Shown here piece after piece: positions 3,057 through 38,940 of a stretch of DNA of 64,000 nucleotides (the first letter of the stretch is position 1; the number at the start of each line of letters is the position of its first letter). Both the position numbers and the translations under genes were made by a program. A model generated the notes under the pieces. It was not told where the DNA came from. It saw only the letters and a program-made list of their open reading frames with translations, and made no database searches. Origin of the DNA: Chloroflexota bacterium (GTDB taxonomy: Bacteria; Chloroflexota; Anaerolineae; Anaerolineales; VGOW01); the NCBI GenBank assembly GCA_016197225.1, contig JACPWC010000095.1, positions 1 to 64,000 on the forward strand, written 5' to 3'.

Positions 3057-3106
3057 ATCGCTCTGTAGGATGCACGTAAGTTCTTGTTGGTAGTAGTGAG
3101 AAAGAC

Positions 3107-3146
3107 AACGGTTCACGGATTTCCTGCCGTGAGCCGTTTTGTTTTG
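3107..3146 (+). terminator. Leader hairpin with U-tract (attenuator or small-RNA terminator)
   Basis: AACGGTTCACGG (3107-3118) pairs with CCGTGAGCCGTT (3127-3138) with one G-U, followed by TTGTTTTG. It sits between the promoter and the cold-shock start codon. It could end a leader RNA of about 80 bases, or act as a temperature-sensitive fold. Confidence 0.5.
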
Positions 3147-3213
3147 ACCGCTCCTAAAGGAACAAACATTGCGTCTAAATTATTTTCTTTTTTGCCATAA
3201 GGAGGCAAACACA

Positions 3214-3423
3214 ATGTCAGAGCGTATCACTGGAACGGTCAAATGGTTTAGCAACAGCAAAGGCTACGGCTTCATTGCCCGCGACGGCGGCGAGGACGTT
3301 TTCGTCCACTTCTCCGCCATCAAGTCCGAGGGTTTCCGCACCCTCCAGGAAGGCCAGATGGTGGAATTCACCGTCGAGAAAGGCCCGAAGGGCTTGCAGG
3401 CTGCCGAAGTTATCCTAAAGTAA
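3214..3423 (+). CDS. csp: Cold-shock protein (CspA family)
   Basis: A 69-residue single OB-fold protein that binds single-stranded nucleic acid and melts RNA structure. RNP1 is KGYGFIARD (residues 16-24) and RNP2 is VFVHFSAI (residues 30-37), both intact. The start codon at 3214 has a strong AAGGAGG site eight to ten bases upstream. It is transcribed alone: a consensus promoter lies 186 bases before it and an intrinsic terminator just after it. The long leader with a hairpin recalls cold-shock mRNAs, whose translation depends on leader structure. Confidence 0.95.
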
Positions 3424-3443
3424 CCAGACGTTCAACTGCTCAA

Positions 3444-3480
3444 AACCCCGTCACTCATTTATTGGGTGACGGGGTTTTTT
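3444..3480 (+). terminator. Intrinsic terminator after the cold-shock gene
   Basis: Perfect 11-bp stem AACCCCGTCAC (3444-3454) / GTGACGGGGTT (3466-3476), followed by six T. Confidence 0.9.
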
Positions 3481-3505: not shown

Positions 3506-4417
3506 ATGATAAAAAATCATAACGAAAAGAATCTCACCCTGCGCCGCCTCCACCTCATTCACCTCTCTCTGTTCATCACCTTCCTTCTCGCCGCCTGCGC
3601 CGCCCCGACTCCGGTTCAACCGCCTCAAACCCTTCGTCTTGCCACCACCACTTCTACTGCCGACTCAGGTTTGCTCGACGCCATCCTGTCAGACTTTGAA
3701 TCGAAGTTCAACGCTAATGTTGAAGTGATTGCCGTTGGCACCGGCCAGGCCCTCGAACTTGGCGCGAACGGCGACGTGGACGTGGTGCTGGTTCACTCGC
3801 GGGCGCGCGAAGATGAATTTGTCGCCAATAGCGACGGCGTTAACCGGCTGGACGTGATGTACAACGACTTTATCCTCGTCGGCCCTGCTGACGACCCCGC
3901 CGGAGTTGCGGGCCTGGAAGTTGCCGCCGAGGCCTTCGCCAAAATTGCAGAGGCAAATGCTCCGTTTGCCTCGCGTGGAGACGATTCGGGTACGCATACC
4001 AAAGAGAAATCCATTTGGAAGAAAGCCAACCTCGAACCCTCGCCCGATTCGGGCTGGTATTTTTCGTTAGGGCAGGGCATGGGCGAAACGCTGTCCTTCG
4101 CCAACGAGAAAGGCGCTTATACTTTAACGGATCGGGGCACCTGGCTGTCGCAAAAAGAAAACCTGCCAAACCTGGACGTGATGGTGGGCGGGGCCAGCAT
4201 TGACGCGAACAAGGACAAAGGCCTGCTCAACCCTTACGGCGTCATCCCCGTCAACCCGGAGAAACACGCCGGCGTCAACTTTGAATTGGCGACTCAGTTT
4301 GCCGAATGGATTACGTCTGTTGAAACCCAGCAATCCATCGCCGACTATGGCAAAGACAAGTTCGGCCAGCCGTTGTTCTACCCAAGCTCGGAGGCCTGGA
4401 AGACAGCGCACCCATAA
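3506..4417 (+). CDS. tupA: Tungstate ABC transporter substrate-binding lipoprotein TupA
   Basis: A 303-residue binding protein for tungstate. The signal peptide ends in lipobox LAAC (Cys31). The oxyanion-site family motif TTTST is at residues 47-51, followed by SRGDDSGTHTKE, GMGETL, YTLTDRGTWL and NPYGVIPVNP, all diagnostic of TupA rather than ModA or PstS. It is the first gene of tupABC-add. No Shine-Dalgarno is visible and a TATAAT lies immediately upstream, consistent with leaderless translation. A hairpin of nonamer words separates it from tupB. Confidence 0.93.
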   Translation: MIKNHNEKNLTLRRLHLIHLSLFITFLLAACAAPTPVQPPQTLRLATTTSTADSGLLDAILSDFESKFNANVEVIAVGTGQALELGANGDVDVVLVHSRAREDEFVANSDGVNRLDVMYNDFILVGPADDPAGVAGLEVAAEAFAKIAEANAPFASRGDDSGTHTKEKSIWKKANLEPSPDSGWYFSLGQGMGETLSFANEKGAYTLTDRGTWLSQKENLPNLDVMVGGASIDANKDKGLLNPYGVIPVNPEKHAGVNFELATQFAEWITSVETQQSIADYGKDKFGQPLFYPSSEAWKTAHP

Positions 4418-34175: not shown

Positions 34176-37175
34176 TTGCTGTTTCTCGTGACCTTCACCA
34201 CCCCCCTCCTTCTCCTCCTCTTCCTCCTCACCCCGCTCATTCTCTGGCTGGGGTGGCCGTCGCGCTCGGCCGCGCGGCGGCGGGAGATTCTCAGCCTGAT
34301 CGTGCGGCTGATCATTTTTGCCTCCATCGTGCTCTCGCTGGCCGGGTTCGAAGCCGTGCGGGCGGCGGACAATCTGGCCGTCGTCTTTCTGGTGGACGTG
34401 TCGGACTCGATGCCGGACGAGGGCCAGGCGCTGGCAGTGGGGTGGGTGCGCGACTCGATGAGCAAGATGGGGCCGGACGACAAGGCGGCTATCGTCTTGT
34501 TCGGCGGCGATGCGCTGGTCGAGCATCCCATGTCAACCTCGCGCCTCATTCAAGAGTTCACTTCGATTCCGACGACGACGCAGACTGATCTCTCCGAAGC
34601 GATCCGCCTGGCGCTGGCCCTGTTCCCCGGTCAGGCCGCCAAGCGCATTGTCATTTTGTCGGACGGGGTCGCCACGACGGGCAACGCCGAAGAGGCGGCC
34701 CGGCTGGCGGCGACGGCGGGCGTGCAGATCATGGCCGTTCCAATTGTCCGCAACCTTGAGGCCTTCGACGAAGCCCTGCTCACGACGGTAGATGCGCCTT
34801 CGTCTTTGCGGCAGGGCGAAGAGTTCGATCTTGAAATTACGGTGAACTCGACGAGGGTGCAAAAGGCGGGCGTGCGCGTCTTTGCCGGGTCGGAGGTGGT
34901 TTACGAAGGCACGCTCGACCTGCGGGTGGGCGAGCATTCGTACACAATTCCGCTGAAGGCGGGCAAACCGGGGTTCATCTCGTACCGAGTCCAGCTTTCC
35001 CCCGCGAACAGCGGCGACACCTTTTACCAGAACAACGAACTGGCCGCGTTCTCACAGGTCAAAGGCCCGCCGCGAGTCCTGGTCGTCGTCGGCGAAAACA
35101 AAGAAGGCACGGACGAGGGCGCGGCTCTGGTCGCCGCGCTTGACGCCGCCGGAATCGATCTCGACCGCGTTCCGCCAACCGGCCTGCCGTCCGAACTGCC
35201 TCTGCTGGCCGAGTATGCTTCGGTGGTGCTGGTGGACGTTCCGGCCAAGCAATTCACGCCGCGCCAGCAAGCGGCGGTTGAACAATACGTGCGCGATCTC
35301 GGCGGCGGCCTGCTCGTGATCGGCGGCCCGCAGAGTTTCGGAGTGGGCGGCTACTTCCGCACCCCGCTGGAAGACGTTCTCCCGGTTGACATGCAGTTGA
35401 AGGATCAGAAGCGGCGGCCCCGGCTGACCATCGTCTTCATCATTGATCATTCCGGCAGTATGTCGGAGACCAGCGGCGGCGTGCAGAAGATCGAACTCGC
35501 CAAAGAAGCCGCCATTCGCGCCGTCGAACTTCTTTCGCCGACCGACAAGGTGGGCGTGGTGCAGTTCGACGACTCGGCCAGTTGGGTCGTGCCAATCACG
35601 CCGCTCGACGACCCGGACACTGTCATCAATCGCATCGCTTCGATCCGCGCCGACGGCGGCACCGACATCATGGCCGGCGTGCGGTTGATGGCCTCCGAAC
35701 TGCCGGACGACGACGCCCAACTCAAGCACACTATCCTGCTCACCGACGGCATCGCCAGCGCGACCGGCATTCCTGAACTTGTTCAACAGTTGTACGAAGA
35801 GAACAACATCACCCTGTCGTCGGTGGCGATGGGCAACGACGCCGACAAGAAACTGCTGGAGCAGTTGGCCCAAGTTGGCGGTGGCCGCTACCACTTCGCC
35901 GCCGACCCGGCCAGCATCCCCGAAATCTTCACTGAAGAGACCACGCTTGCCACCCGCGCTTACATCATCGAAGAGACGTTCTTCCCGGAGCGCGTCGGCA
36001 TCAGCCCGATCCTCGAAGGCATCTCGGCTGTGCCGCAGTTGTTGGGCTACGTGGGCACATCGCCGAAAGAGGCGGCGCAAACGATTCTCGTTTCGCAGTT
36101 GGCCGACGGCTCGCGCGATCCGCTTCTGGCTTCGTGGCAATACGGCCTCGGCAAGTCGGTGGCCTGGACTTCGGACGCGACCGGGCGCTGGGCCGAGCAG
36201 TGGGTGAAGTGGGACGGCTTTGCCACGTTCTTTGCTCAGGCCGTGCGCTACACGATCAACGAGAGCGTGCAGTCGGACATCACCGCCGACGTGACTCTCG
36301 ACGGCGAAACCGCCACTCTGGCCGTGGACGCTTACAACAACGACGGCCAGTTCATCAACAACCTGGCCCTGCAAGCCAACGTCATTTCGCCGGATGGAAC
36401 GTCGCAGTTGGTGGAGATGATTCAGACCGCGCCGGGACGCTACGAAGCCGACTTTACGCCGACCGAGCCGGGCGCATATTTGATTCGCATCGCCGGGCCG
36501 AACGGAGACGCCGCCTCGGTTGGAGAAACGTCCGGCTGGGTGTTGACCTACTCACCCGAATACAAAACGCTCACCGCCGACCCGAACGCGCTGGGCCGCG
36601 CCGCCCAACTCACGGCCGGCGGCTGTGTGGTGCCGGTTCCCAACGAGCCGATTCCTGAAAGCAAAGTGTTTTGCCGCGTGGCCGGGCCGGACGCCGCCTT
36701 CAACCACGACCTGATTGCCCGGCAGGTGACCAGCCCGCTTTGGCCGTATCTGCTGTTCCTGGCCGTCCTGCTCCTGCCGTTCGACATTGCCATTCGGCGA
36801 CTCGTCATCAGCCGTTACGATTTACAACGCGCCTACACCCGCCTCGTCGAAATCGCCAAAGGCGTCAGCCGCCCGAAGGCCGAGCAGGTGCGCGTCGAAG
36901 CCATGTCGCGTTTGCAACAGGCCAAGCAACGCGCGGGCGTTTCCGGCGTAGGGGCCGACCCACGTGTCGGCCCTGTCGGCCCAGAGTCAGGGCAATCACC
37001 CAGGATTGCCCCTACAACCCAATCGCCGCTCGATCCCTCAGCCGCCAAACCGCCTGCCGAGGTTTCACCCCCGCCAGCCATCATCACACCGCCGCCCAAC
37101 CCGCAACCCGCGCCCCCGGCCAGCGGCGAGACCACGGCGGCTTCATTGTTAGCAAAGAAACGCACTCGCAAATAA
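34176..37175 (+). CDS. Large membrane protein with two VWA domains and an amidotransferase-like domain
   Basis: A 999-residue protein. Two N-terminal helices (about 5-26, 41-60) precede the first VWA domain with MIDAS DVSDS (residues 74-78). A beta domain and a class I amidotransferase-like fold (about 305-410: ASVVLVDVPAKQFTPRQQ, GGGLLVIGGPQSFG) follow, then a second VWA domain with MIDAS DHSGS (about 423-427). A long beta-rich region (600-840), a helix near 855-875 and a Pro-rich cytosolic tail complete it. The tail (residues 925-947) is encoded by a GTAGGGGC hairpin repeat. TTG 34176 or GTG 34188 could be the start. It is the last gene of the MoxR cluster. Confidence 0.83.
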   Translation: MLFLVTFTTPLLLLLFLLTPLILWLGWPSRSAARRREILSLIVRLIIFASIVLSLAGFEAVRAADNLAVVFLVDVSDSMPDEGQALAVGWVRDSMSKMGPDDKAAIVLFGGDALVEHPMSTSRLIQEFTSIPTTTQTDLSEAIRLALALFPGQAAKRIVILSDGVATTGNAEEAARLAATAGVQIMAVPIVRNLEAFDEALLTTVDAPSSLRQGEEFDLEITVNSTRVQKAGVRVFAGSEVVYEGTLDLRVGEHSYTIPLKAGKPGFISYRVQLSPANSGDTFYQNNELAAFSQVKGPPRVLVVVGENKEGTDEGAALVAALDAAGIDLDRVPPTGLPSELPLLAEYASVVLVDVPAKQFTPRQQAAVEQYVRDLGGGLLVIGGPQSFGVGGYFRTPLEDVLPVDMQLKDQKRRPRLTIVFIIDHSGSMSETSGGVQKIELAKEAAIRAVELLSPTDKVGVVQFDDSASWVVPITPLDDPDTVINRIASIRADGGTDIMAGVRLMASELPDDDAQLKHTILLTDGIASATGIPELVQQLYEENNITLSSVAMGNDADKKLLEQLAQVGGGRYHFAADPASIPEIFTEETTLATRAYIIEETFFPERVGISPILEGISAVPQLLGYVGTSPKEAAQTILVSQLADGSRDPLLASWQYGLGKSVAWTSDATGRWAEQWVKWDGFATFFAQAVRYTINESVQSDITADVTLDGETATLAVDAYNNDGQFINNLALQANVISPDGTSQLVEMIQTAPGRYEADFTPTEPGAYLIRIAGPNGDAASVGETSGWVLTYSPEYKTLTADPNALGRAAQLTAGGCVVPVPNEPIPESKVFCRVAGPDAAFNHDLIARQVTSPLWPYLLFLAVLLLPFDIAIRRLVISRYDLQRAYTRLVEIAKGVSRPKAEQVRVEAMSRLQQAKQRAGVSGVGADPRVGPVGPESGQSPRIAPTTQSPLDPSAAKPPAEVSPPPAIITPPPNPQPAPPASGETTAASLLAKKRTRK
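36948..37015. repeat. GTAGGGGC..GCCCCTAC hairpin inside the VWA gene
   Basis: Terminal arms GTAGGGGC (36948) and GCCCCTAC (37008), with inner GGCCGAC..GTCGGCC. This type of element is usually intergenic; here it is translated in frame. Confidence 0.7.
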
Positions 37176-37284
37176 AAAAGCGGCTCCCCCCAGGCACCGA
37201 TAACCACCGCTCAAAATAGCGGATTGGGACTCCCAAATATGGAGCCAGTGACACTGGGACTTACGAGTCGCTTGTCAATAGTGT

Positions 37285-37335
37285 ATGCCGATTTGGCCGA
37301 ATGGCAAGGGCAATTTTTGCGGCAGGATTGCACAA
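37285..37335. repeat. Flanking repeat, left copy
   Basis: Matches 40541-40591 over about 50 bases with small gaps; the core GCAATTTTTGCNGCAGGATT continues to a 26-base block with one mismatch. The two copies bracket the DUF1963-VOC-esterase island. The rest of 37176-37284 holds two tiny palindromes (TTGGGACTCCCAA and CCAGTGACACTGG) and no gene. Confidence 0.7.
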
Positions 37336-37350
37336 TCGAGCCTGCCCGCC

Positions 37351-37420
37351 ACCCGCGCCCCCGGCCAGCGGCGAGTCCACGGCTTCTTCACTGCTGGCGA
37401 AGAAGCGGGGCCGGAAGTAG
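37351..37420 (+). pseudogene. 3' tail of a second, lost VWA-type gene
   Basis: Translates to PAPPASGESTASSLLAKKRG plus two residues and a stop, nearly the same as the end of the preceding VWA protein (37106-37175). The differences are mostly synonymous (LLAKK is coded by different third bases), so this is an old paralogue tail rather than a fresh duplication. Positions 37421-37503 after it hold only a CATGGAA/TTCCATG hairpin at 37479. Confidence 0.6.
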
Positions 37421-37503
37421 AATGCCCCAGCAGATGATTTTGCAGAAGCGAAATTCTGTATAAAAGGTTGTGTTTTACATGGAATTTTTCCATGGACTCA
37501 ACG

Positions 37504-38445
37504 GTTAGCCCGCTCTGTTTTCAATATGCCGCAGAAAGTCGCACATGAATTTCAAATTAGATATTGAGTTGCCCAACGAGTTGGTTGCTTTCAAAGAAAA
37601 TATCGAATCCAGCATTAAGCCACATGTAGAGATAGAGGCAAAAACGGAAAGCAACCTTCATCTATGGCAAAGTAAATTCGGTGGTTTTCCATATCTTCCG
37701 AAAAACTTTCACTACCCTAAAGATTCCAACGGGCAGGCAATGTTTTTACTTGCTCAAATCAATTTTGCTGAAACCCCAAAATTAGAGACTTTCCCTGAAA
37801 AAGGGGTTTTACAATTTTATATTTCGGGCGGGGACGATGTTTATGGTATATGTTTTGAAGATTTGGCAAAACAGGACGGTTTTACAATCCTTTATTTTCC
37901 CGACGTTCTTAAGGATGAAAGCAAACTGGTAACGGATTTTAGGTTTTTGCCTAAATTTGATATGTTGCCTTTGCAAAAATCATGCTCACTTACCTTTGAC
38001 CTACACTACGCTCCAATACCCACCGCCGATTATCAATTTGAGCCGAAAATCTTTGGACAAAATGTCCCTCAATCTAAGGATGAGTTTTACAAGATTTGCG
38101 ATGAATATCAACAACTTTTTAGTTCAGCGGGGCATAAGATTGGCGGTTATCCTTATTTCACACAAAGCGACCCCAGACATAGTAAAAAATATAAAGACGA
38201 GAATTACATTTTGCTTTTCCAAATGGACACTGATGGAAAAGCAGATATTATGTGGGGCGATAGTGGCATAGGGAATTTCTTTGTCTTGGAACAAGACTTG
38301 CAGAAACGGGATTTTTCCAGAGTTCTATACAATTGGGATTGTTGTTGATGAAATATGGTCGTTTTCCGATCAAACGGCGGGCTAACCCCCACATGCAGTG
38401 GTTTTGCTCCGCAAAGTGCGCGGAGCAAAACCACTGACGCGGAAC
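37504..38445 (+). mobile_element. Possible integron-type gene cassette (DUF1963)
   Basis: The left boundary GGTTAGCCCGC (37503-37513) is the exact reverse complement of GCGGGCTAACC (38377-38387) after the gene. This is the relation expected between the R' and R'' core sites of one cassette. One AT-rich gene lies between, followed by a palindromic attC-like site. No integrase is present in the window. Confidence 0.45.
37545..38348 (+). CDS. DUF1963 (YwqG-like) protein
   Basis: A 267-residue soluble protein of the YwqG/DUF1963 family. The family blocks are LHLWQSKFGGFPYLPKNF (about residues 41-58), FLLAQINFAE (66-75), LQFYISGGDDVYG, and the closing FQMDTDGKADIMWGDSGIGN. Cellular role is unknown; such proteins are common as single accessory genes. 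It is strikingly AT-rich with relaxed codon use against GC-rich neighbours, a sign of transfer. It is bounded by complementary GTTAGCC/GGCTAAC core sites. Confidence 0.88.
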   Translation: MNFKLDIELPNELVAFKENIESSIKPHVEIEAKTESNLHLWQSKFGGFPYLPKNFHYPKDSNGQAMFLLAQINFAETPKLETFPEKGVLQFYISGGDDVYGICFEDLAKQDGFTILYFPDVLKDESKLVTDFRFLPKFDMLPLQKSCSLTFDLHYAPIPTADYQFEPKIFGQNVPQSKDEFYKICDEYQQLFSSAGHKIGGYPYFTQSDPRHSKKYKDENYILLFQMDTDGKADIMWGDSGIGNFFVLEQDLQKRDFSRVLYNWDCC

Positions 38446-38452
38446 ATTGGGC
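38380..38452 (+). other. attC-like recombination site
   Basis: GGCTAAC (38380-38386) at one end, ATTGGGC (38446-38452) at the other. Between them is a perfect 17-bp inverted repeat CAGTGGTTTTGCTCCGC (38396) / (38420-38436) with a seven-base loop. The CTGACGCGGAAC stretch before the right core resembles the L' region of attC sites. Confidence 0.5.
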
Positions 38453-38463
38453 GTTTTTTCATT

Positions 38464-38886
38464 ATGGTTGAAGATTATTGGAATCCCCTGGTACCAGAAC
38501 TAACCGTGAGCAACATTGAAGAGTCTCTGCGGTTTTATAAGGCTGTTGGCTTTTCGATTCGATTTAGTCGCAACAATCCAGATTTCGCTTACATTGAACT
38601 TGGGCAGGCACAACTAATGCTTGAGCAAGAGCATGATACGACATGGCGAACTGATGTTTTAGAGCGCCCGCTAGGCAGAGGCGTCAATTTCCAAATTGAA
38701 GTCCCAGATATACAATCCGTGTCAAATTCATTAAGCGCGGCTGGCTTTACATTTTTCAGCAATCCAAAAGAATCTTGGTATGAAATAGCGCCAGATAGAG
38801 AAGAAGGTCAATTTGAGTTTCTCGTCCAAGACCCTGACGGGTATCTTATGCGGTTTACACAATATTTTGGTTTCAGGTCGAAATGA
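38464..38886 (+). CDS. VOC-superfamily (glyoxalase/bleomycin-resistance) protein
   Basis: A 140-residue protein with paired beta-alpha-beta-beta-beta modules of the vicinal oxygen chelate fold: VPELTVSNIEESLRFYKAVG (residues 9-28) and NFQIEVPDIQSVSNSLSAAG (about 74-93). The ending EFLVQDPDGYLMRF is typical of bleomycin-binding and dioxygenase-like members. The catalytic metal triad is not evident, so binding rather than catalysis is possible. Start ATG 38464; an upstream in-frame GTG would lie in the attC-like palindrome. Less GC-rich than the surrounding chromosome. Single-gene VOC cassettes are common in integron arrays. Confidence 0.87.
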   Translation: MVEDYWNPLVPELTVSNIEESLRFYKAVGFSIRFSRNNPDFAYIELGQAQLMLEQEHDTTWRTDVLERPLGRGVNFQIEVPDIQSVSNSLSAAGFTFFSNPKESWYEIAPDREEGQFEFLVQDPDGYLMRFTQYFGFRSK

Positions 38887-38940
38887 AGGCTAATCATATT
38901 CGGCCGGACTGTCCCGCGCTGATTTGTTGAAAGGATCTTG

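Follow-up and report, generated by a model that had tools for sequence, protein, structure and literature searches.

How does a gene that looks like an integron cassette come to stand in a stretch of DNA with no integrase gene beside it? The stretch in question comprises the first 64,000 nucleotides of a contig assigned to a Chloroflexota bacterium (hereafter the window). An initial annotation, made from the letters alone, described in it an AT-rich DUF1963 gene framed like an integron cassette, and read this as part of an integrase-free cassette cluster in a probable Chloroflexota genome. The named relatives of the VWA protein encoded in the window are from Chloroflexi/Anaerolineae, the nearest on the Chloroflexi MAG contig VGOW01000007.1, in agreement with that assignment.

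All of the elements described are present in the sequence, namely the reverse-complementary arms (GGTTAGCCCGC at 37503-37513 and GCGGGCTAACC at 38377-38387), a perfect 17-bp inverted repeat with a loop of 7 bases (CAGTGGTTTTGCTCCGC at 38396-38412 with GCGGAGCAAAACCACTG at 38420-38436), an L'-like CTGACGCGGAAC at 38434-38445 and the right core ATTGGGC (Table 1). The 11-bp pair is by itself not beyond chance, since the window contains 59 exact reverse-complement pairs of this length that lie 500-1500 bp apart. The evidence rests on the full attC architecture, on the match to a covariance model and on the arm's location at the 5' end of its own cassette. The outer arm of R'' in a cassette complements that cassette's own 5' end and not the sequence downstream. 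In this case the outer arm is GCGGGCTAA (38377-38385), and its reverse complement over 9 bp, TTAGCCCGC (37505-37513), lies 875 bp upstream. TTAGCCCGC begins at 37505 behind a G, at a G^TT, and downstream controls reach 3-4 bases only, so we set the limits of the cassette at 37505-38446. The cassettes tested in the resident array of the same genome, described below, keep this own-arm rule over 8-13 bp, and the relation used in the initial annotation was the right one to apply. The upstream core GTTAGCC, also present in the resident array, and the downstream core ATTGGGC each depart once from GTTRRRY.

Table 1. Features of the cassette and its flanks (positions in the window; strand as given).
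Feature	Position	Strand	Basis or remark
Left flank with palindrome CATGGAATTTTTCCATG	37455..37504	+	attI-like resemblance not significant
Cassette 5' boundary G^TTAGCCCGC; G at 37504 precedes the crossover	37503..37513	+	Sequence; own R'' arm matches over 9 bp
Complete gene cassette, 942 bp	37505..38446	+	Starts with TT of upstream core G^TTAGCC, ends at the base preceding TT of downstream core
Cassette gene, 267-aa DUF1963/YwqG-family protein	37545..38348	+	PF09234, 1pv5
attC, folds on bottom strand	38380..38452	+	Covariance model R2, fold, architecture score
R'' box GGCTAAC	38380..38386	+	Same variant as resident attC L020:16572 and L020:17676
L'' arm CACAT[G]CAGTGG, one extrahelical base at 38395	38390..38401	+	Bottom-strand G-T wobbles with L'
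L' arm CCACTGACGCG	38431..38441	+	Pairs with L''
Cassette 3' end ...CGCGGAAC			Would adjoin TTAGCCCGC in the predicted excised circle
R' core ATTGGGC, A replacing G before crossover	38446..38452	+	Sequence; comparison sites read G there
Probable second cassette, 3'-truncated	38447..38886	+	Canonical 5' end TTGGGCG and VOC gene; no attC behind
VOC/glyoxalase-like gene, 140 aa	38464-38886	+	Pfam PF00903, E=1e-4

Both architecture and homology identify the hairpin behind the gene as a true attC, as the initial annotation had supposed. A scan for R''/R' boxes and L''/L' arms with one extrahelical base, in which bottom-strand pairs were counted, returned a single place in the 64 kb with a score of 26, compared with a maximum of 17 in 150 dinucleotide-resampled windows. 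The attC sites of integrons in this and related genomes scored 14-24 in the same scan. A covariance model (R2) was trained on 17 attC sites taken from this genome and from relatives, excluding the window site. Its arms were put in register by hand, with spacers padded or trimmed and the loop set to N; a free MAFFT alignment (R1) misaligned the arms. In the R2 structure 96% of the cells are paired and 75 are double-changed, compared with 24.3 in shuffles, and the covariation behind this structure is strong. The sole R2 match in the window at E<=10 was at 38380-38452 on the bottom strand, the very place predicted for such a hit (34.3 bits, with an E of about 1e-6 that is rough owing to the short calibration). 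Two other measures were set aside: the pattern RYYYAAC...GTTRRRY gave 120 matches compared with 273 for the reversed control and is uninformative alone, and a free-energy scan was too permissive.

In order, the site reads GGCTAAC (R''), CCC, CACAT, the extrahelical G, the 17-bp stem, ACGCG, GAAC and ATTGGGC (R'), and its bottom-strand fold has z=-6.2. Like the attC sites of the resident array, it has this R'' variant, the same spacers and a first extrahelical base in the same place, and several of those sites carry the same GGCTAAC together with a TTGCTCCGC-type stem. The L'' arm of an attC normally carries two extrahelical bases. In the window attC the first is present and the second, found in 34 of 36 comparison sites, is absent; alone among 37 sites, it continues as a fully paired stem without that base. 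With the second base missing and R' starting with A, the site is probably weak in recombination now, to judge from its sequence. The veb1 attC, which has one extrahelical base, recombines poorly (PMC3518468).

The composition of the cassette is foreign, as had been noted. Its GC content is 40% compared with 59% for the window, and the GC3 of the DUF1963 gene is 0.375 compared with 0.79 for the upstream gene. The product is a full match to DUF1963 (E=1.3e-67), and its nearest solved structure is that of YwqG (PDB 1pv5, E=1.7e-58). The distribution of the gene is patchy. Among 150 related genomes no relative was found at E<=1e-10, and thus none carrying the gene without the cores, nor was there one in the genome contigs searched. 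Matches on plasmids were less than 45% identical and belonged to unrelated hosts.

The integrase-free cluster, in contrast, is not supported. Only one attC is detectable, which makes this a single cassette and not a cluster, and the genome itself carries integrases. A search of the window's own assembly with TIGR02249 identified two full-length integron integrases (IntI), C15:31482-32423 and C55:3054-3995, scoring 494 and about 490-491 bits, respectively, against a cut-off of 265 and with no internal stop. Both translations contain the conserved R, H-x-x-R and Y motifs (read by eye), and the C15 protein can be aligned along its length to the integron integrase VchIntIA (2a3v). Behind the C15 intI gene R2 recovers eight attC sites in an array, and gene and array form the resident integron. 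In two congeners the intI genes (G002:C140:137944-138888 and G004:C12:69184-70128; L049, L048) have one in-frame TGA each within the match, and in G004 an attC in the reversed orientation comes after the attI region.

The cassette is followed by the junction TTGGGCG, and a second AT-rich gene has its start codon 17 bases on; this arrangement suggests an older VOC cassette that has lost its attC. The VOC gene has a GC3 of 0.379 and one weak relative among 60 genomes, and R2 finds no attC match behind it. Directly behind its stop, in the 51-bp gap (38888-38937 region) before a PAF-AH gene, stands GGCTAAT at 38888. By eye this might be the remnant of a decayed attC, a candidate that we dropped since R2 finds no match there. 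On the other side, synteny with relatives breaks directly behind the VWA gene, and no empty site is shown in them. An Rfam DUF3800-III RNA also lies directly behind this gene (37177-37274, minus strand; 49 bits, gathering 43.8). The tract 37176-37294 is 88% identical to G003:C384:1306-1424, so that it looks like a small dispersed element of the genus. Beyond it lies a second copy of the end of the VWA gene (37100-37162 and 37346-37408, 86%). Elsewhere in the window, 3061-3480 on the plus strand is a full-length match to the Rfam cspA thermoregulator (85 bits, gathering 78), here in a Chloroflexota genome.

Taken together, the DUF1963/YwqG gene and its attC are a single complete cassette (SALIN), which in our view was probably inserted by an IntI outside any intact integron. 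Such an IntI, most likely one of the two resident ones, would act in trans on the circular cassette, and the folded bottom strand of the attC would recombine with a 5'-G^TT target in the chromosome. Rare use of secondary GNT sites by IntI has been documented (PMC3518468). One candidate for the target is a non-classical genomic site (attG type); the other, with the VOC cassette seemingly already in place, is the front of that earlier cassette, since left without an attC. Against insertion by IntI stand the lack of an empty site, the deviation of the attC from its relatives and the canonical right junction TTGGGCG, which suggests another cassette, rather than plain chromosome, as the right neighbor.

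The main rival holds that the locus is the relic of a decayed integron or array, in which an attI and intI once lay upstream or a piece of a resident array was translocated, with the intI and the VOC attC since lost. We regard this as rather unlikely, although it is in keeping with two AT-rich foreign genes in succession, each with a cassette-like 5' end, and with the rearranged tract upstream, which has the duplicated VWA tail and the RNA element. The left flank is also faintly like the C55 attI, with an alignment score of 34 that was reached in 5 of 1000 mononucleotide shuffles. However, this alignment needs a gap next to the crossover and other tiles of the window reach the same score, so we rejected an attI there as neither significant nor particular to the site. 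Furthermore, the window contains no remnant of an intI gene, as tblastn with the resident IntI gives nothing below E=1, and blastn of the window against both resident intI leaders detected no similarity. The locus thus shows neither an adjacent intI nor a significant attI, as a complete integron would. The many other solitary attC sites in the genus, discussed below, favor single-cassette insertion as a simpler common cause than decay.

It is improbable that an IS91-like element delivered or flanked the cassette. The idea draws on G002, where the hairpin end ...CATCAATCCTTAATTCG/TT (slash, junction) of an IS91-type element (Y2_Tnp, Zn_Tnp_IS91) immediately precedes the first base of cassettes, but the left flank in the window does not match that hairpin end, and a search of 37176-37504 in 20 relatives revealed no second copy of the part adjoining the cassette. 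Still less weight falls on an ordinary terminator-like hairpin behind a horizontally acquired gene, with no integron involved, which we consider very improbable. A perfect 17-bp stem that lacks the second extrahelical base and is strong on both strands would suit such a hairpin. It would not provide for R''/R' boxes, for L''/L' arms whose extrahelical base is on the correct side, for base pairs exclusive to the bottom strand, for a match at E=1e-6 to a model with an independent training set, or for the own-arm rule at the front of the gene.

In congeners G001-G004, a hairpin ending in ...CCGCCGCATCAATCCTTAATTCG/TT recurs immediately in front of integron cassettes and also in front of other sequence (L086, where it ends at 4137, L087, L094, L095, L132, L134, L135, L136 and L138). 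On C39 of G002 it follows an IS91-type transposase gene (Y2_Tnp, Zn_Tnp_IS91) and a related tyrosine recombinase; from this position we take the hairpin to be a probable IS91-like end, joined to the attC core at the same G/TT where IntI cuts. In the window's own genome, a stretch with two attC sites on C103 (L081 near 7730) begins after a comparable end, CGCCGCATGAATCCTTAATCG/TT, a short way downstream of a lon-like gene.

Solitary sites such as the one in the window are not confined to it. R2 located attC sites away from the C15 array on at least C56, C103, C28 and C42 of the same genome and, in the congener G002, at no fewer than about twenty places on many contigs, mostly without a second attC within several kilobases. 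These genome-wide counts are lower bounds, as 150 of 4635 candidates were scored and the window's own site was not among them, and in such draft assemblies solitary sites near contig ends may be broken arrays. A 9-bp own-arm match was present within 1.6 kb upstream of five of the 15 solitary attC sites of this genome and the congener, the window site included, compared with 10 of 210 for foreign arms (some arms being common to several sites) and 0 of 15 downstream. Behind the crossover G some of the solitary sites read GTTGTGA, GTTGGAA or GTCGAGC. These sequences are non-canonical, as expected for insertion into non-classical sites. We tentatively suggest that the resident integrase spreads single cassettes widely at non-classical sites in this genus, that solitary cassettes outweigh arrays as a mode of settlement, and that the window holds a well-preserved cassette with an attC in decay since it settled. 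The more interesting lead is the way solitary cassettes are scattered over the genus, a lead rather than a proof.

The cassette is a genuine mobile gene unit, but its features, and the terms for them, are already known. Integrons have been described in Chloroflexota (PMC9668308). With a single attC and no adjoining intI, the locus belongs with the SALIN, an accepted class (PMC12690207); the single-attC CALIN is likewise a known term (PMC9024848). By default, IntegronFinder 2 leaves out solitary cassettes, since it reports integrase-less sites only where two or more attC are present (PMC9024848). As in SALIN and CALIN, one attC-terminated cassette has no adjacent intI and the genome has intI elsewhere, but the locus is not a cluster, both cassette ends are identifiable and the attC is short of one extrahelical base.

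The attG insertions reportedly described by Loot et al. in Nature Microbiology in 2024 resemble it in that a cassette lies outside any integron with a crossover at G^TT, and several cassettes are scattered in one genome. In contrast to these, the right junction in the window is the canonical TTGGGC and not arbitrary sequence, and relatives offer no empty site. A genus with single cassettes that can be recognized by the own-arm rule would be a natural test of the attG idea, and the rule itself is a way to annotate settled cassettes. The veb1 attC of class 1 integrons likewise has one extrahelical base only and is reported to be inefficient (PMC3518468), but differs in sequence, host and integron class. 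The resident integron on C15 shares with the window the attC geometry, the R'' variant GGCTAAC and the own-arm rule, and differs in having an intI gene and eight attC sites where the window has one attC and no intI.
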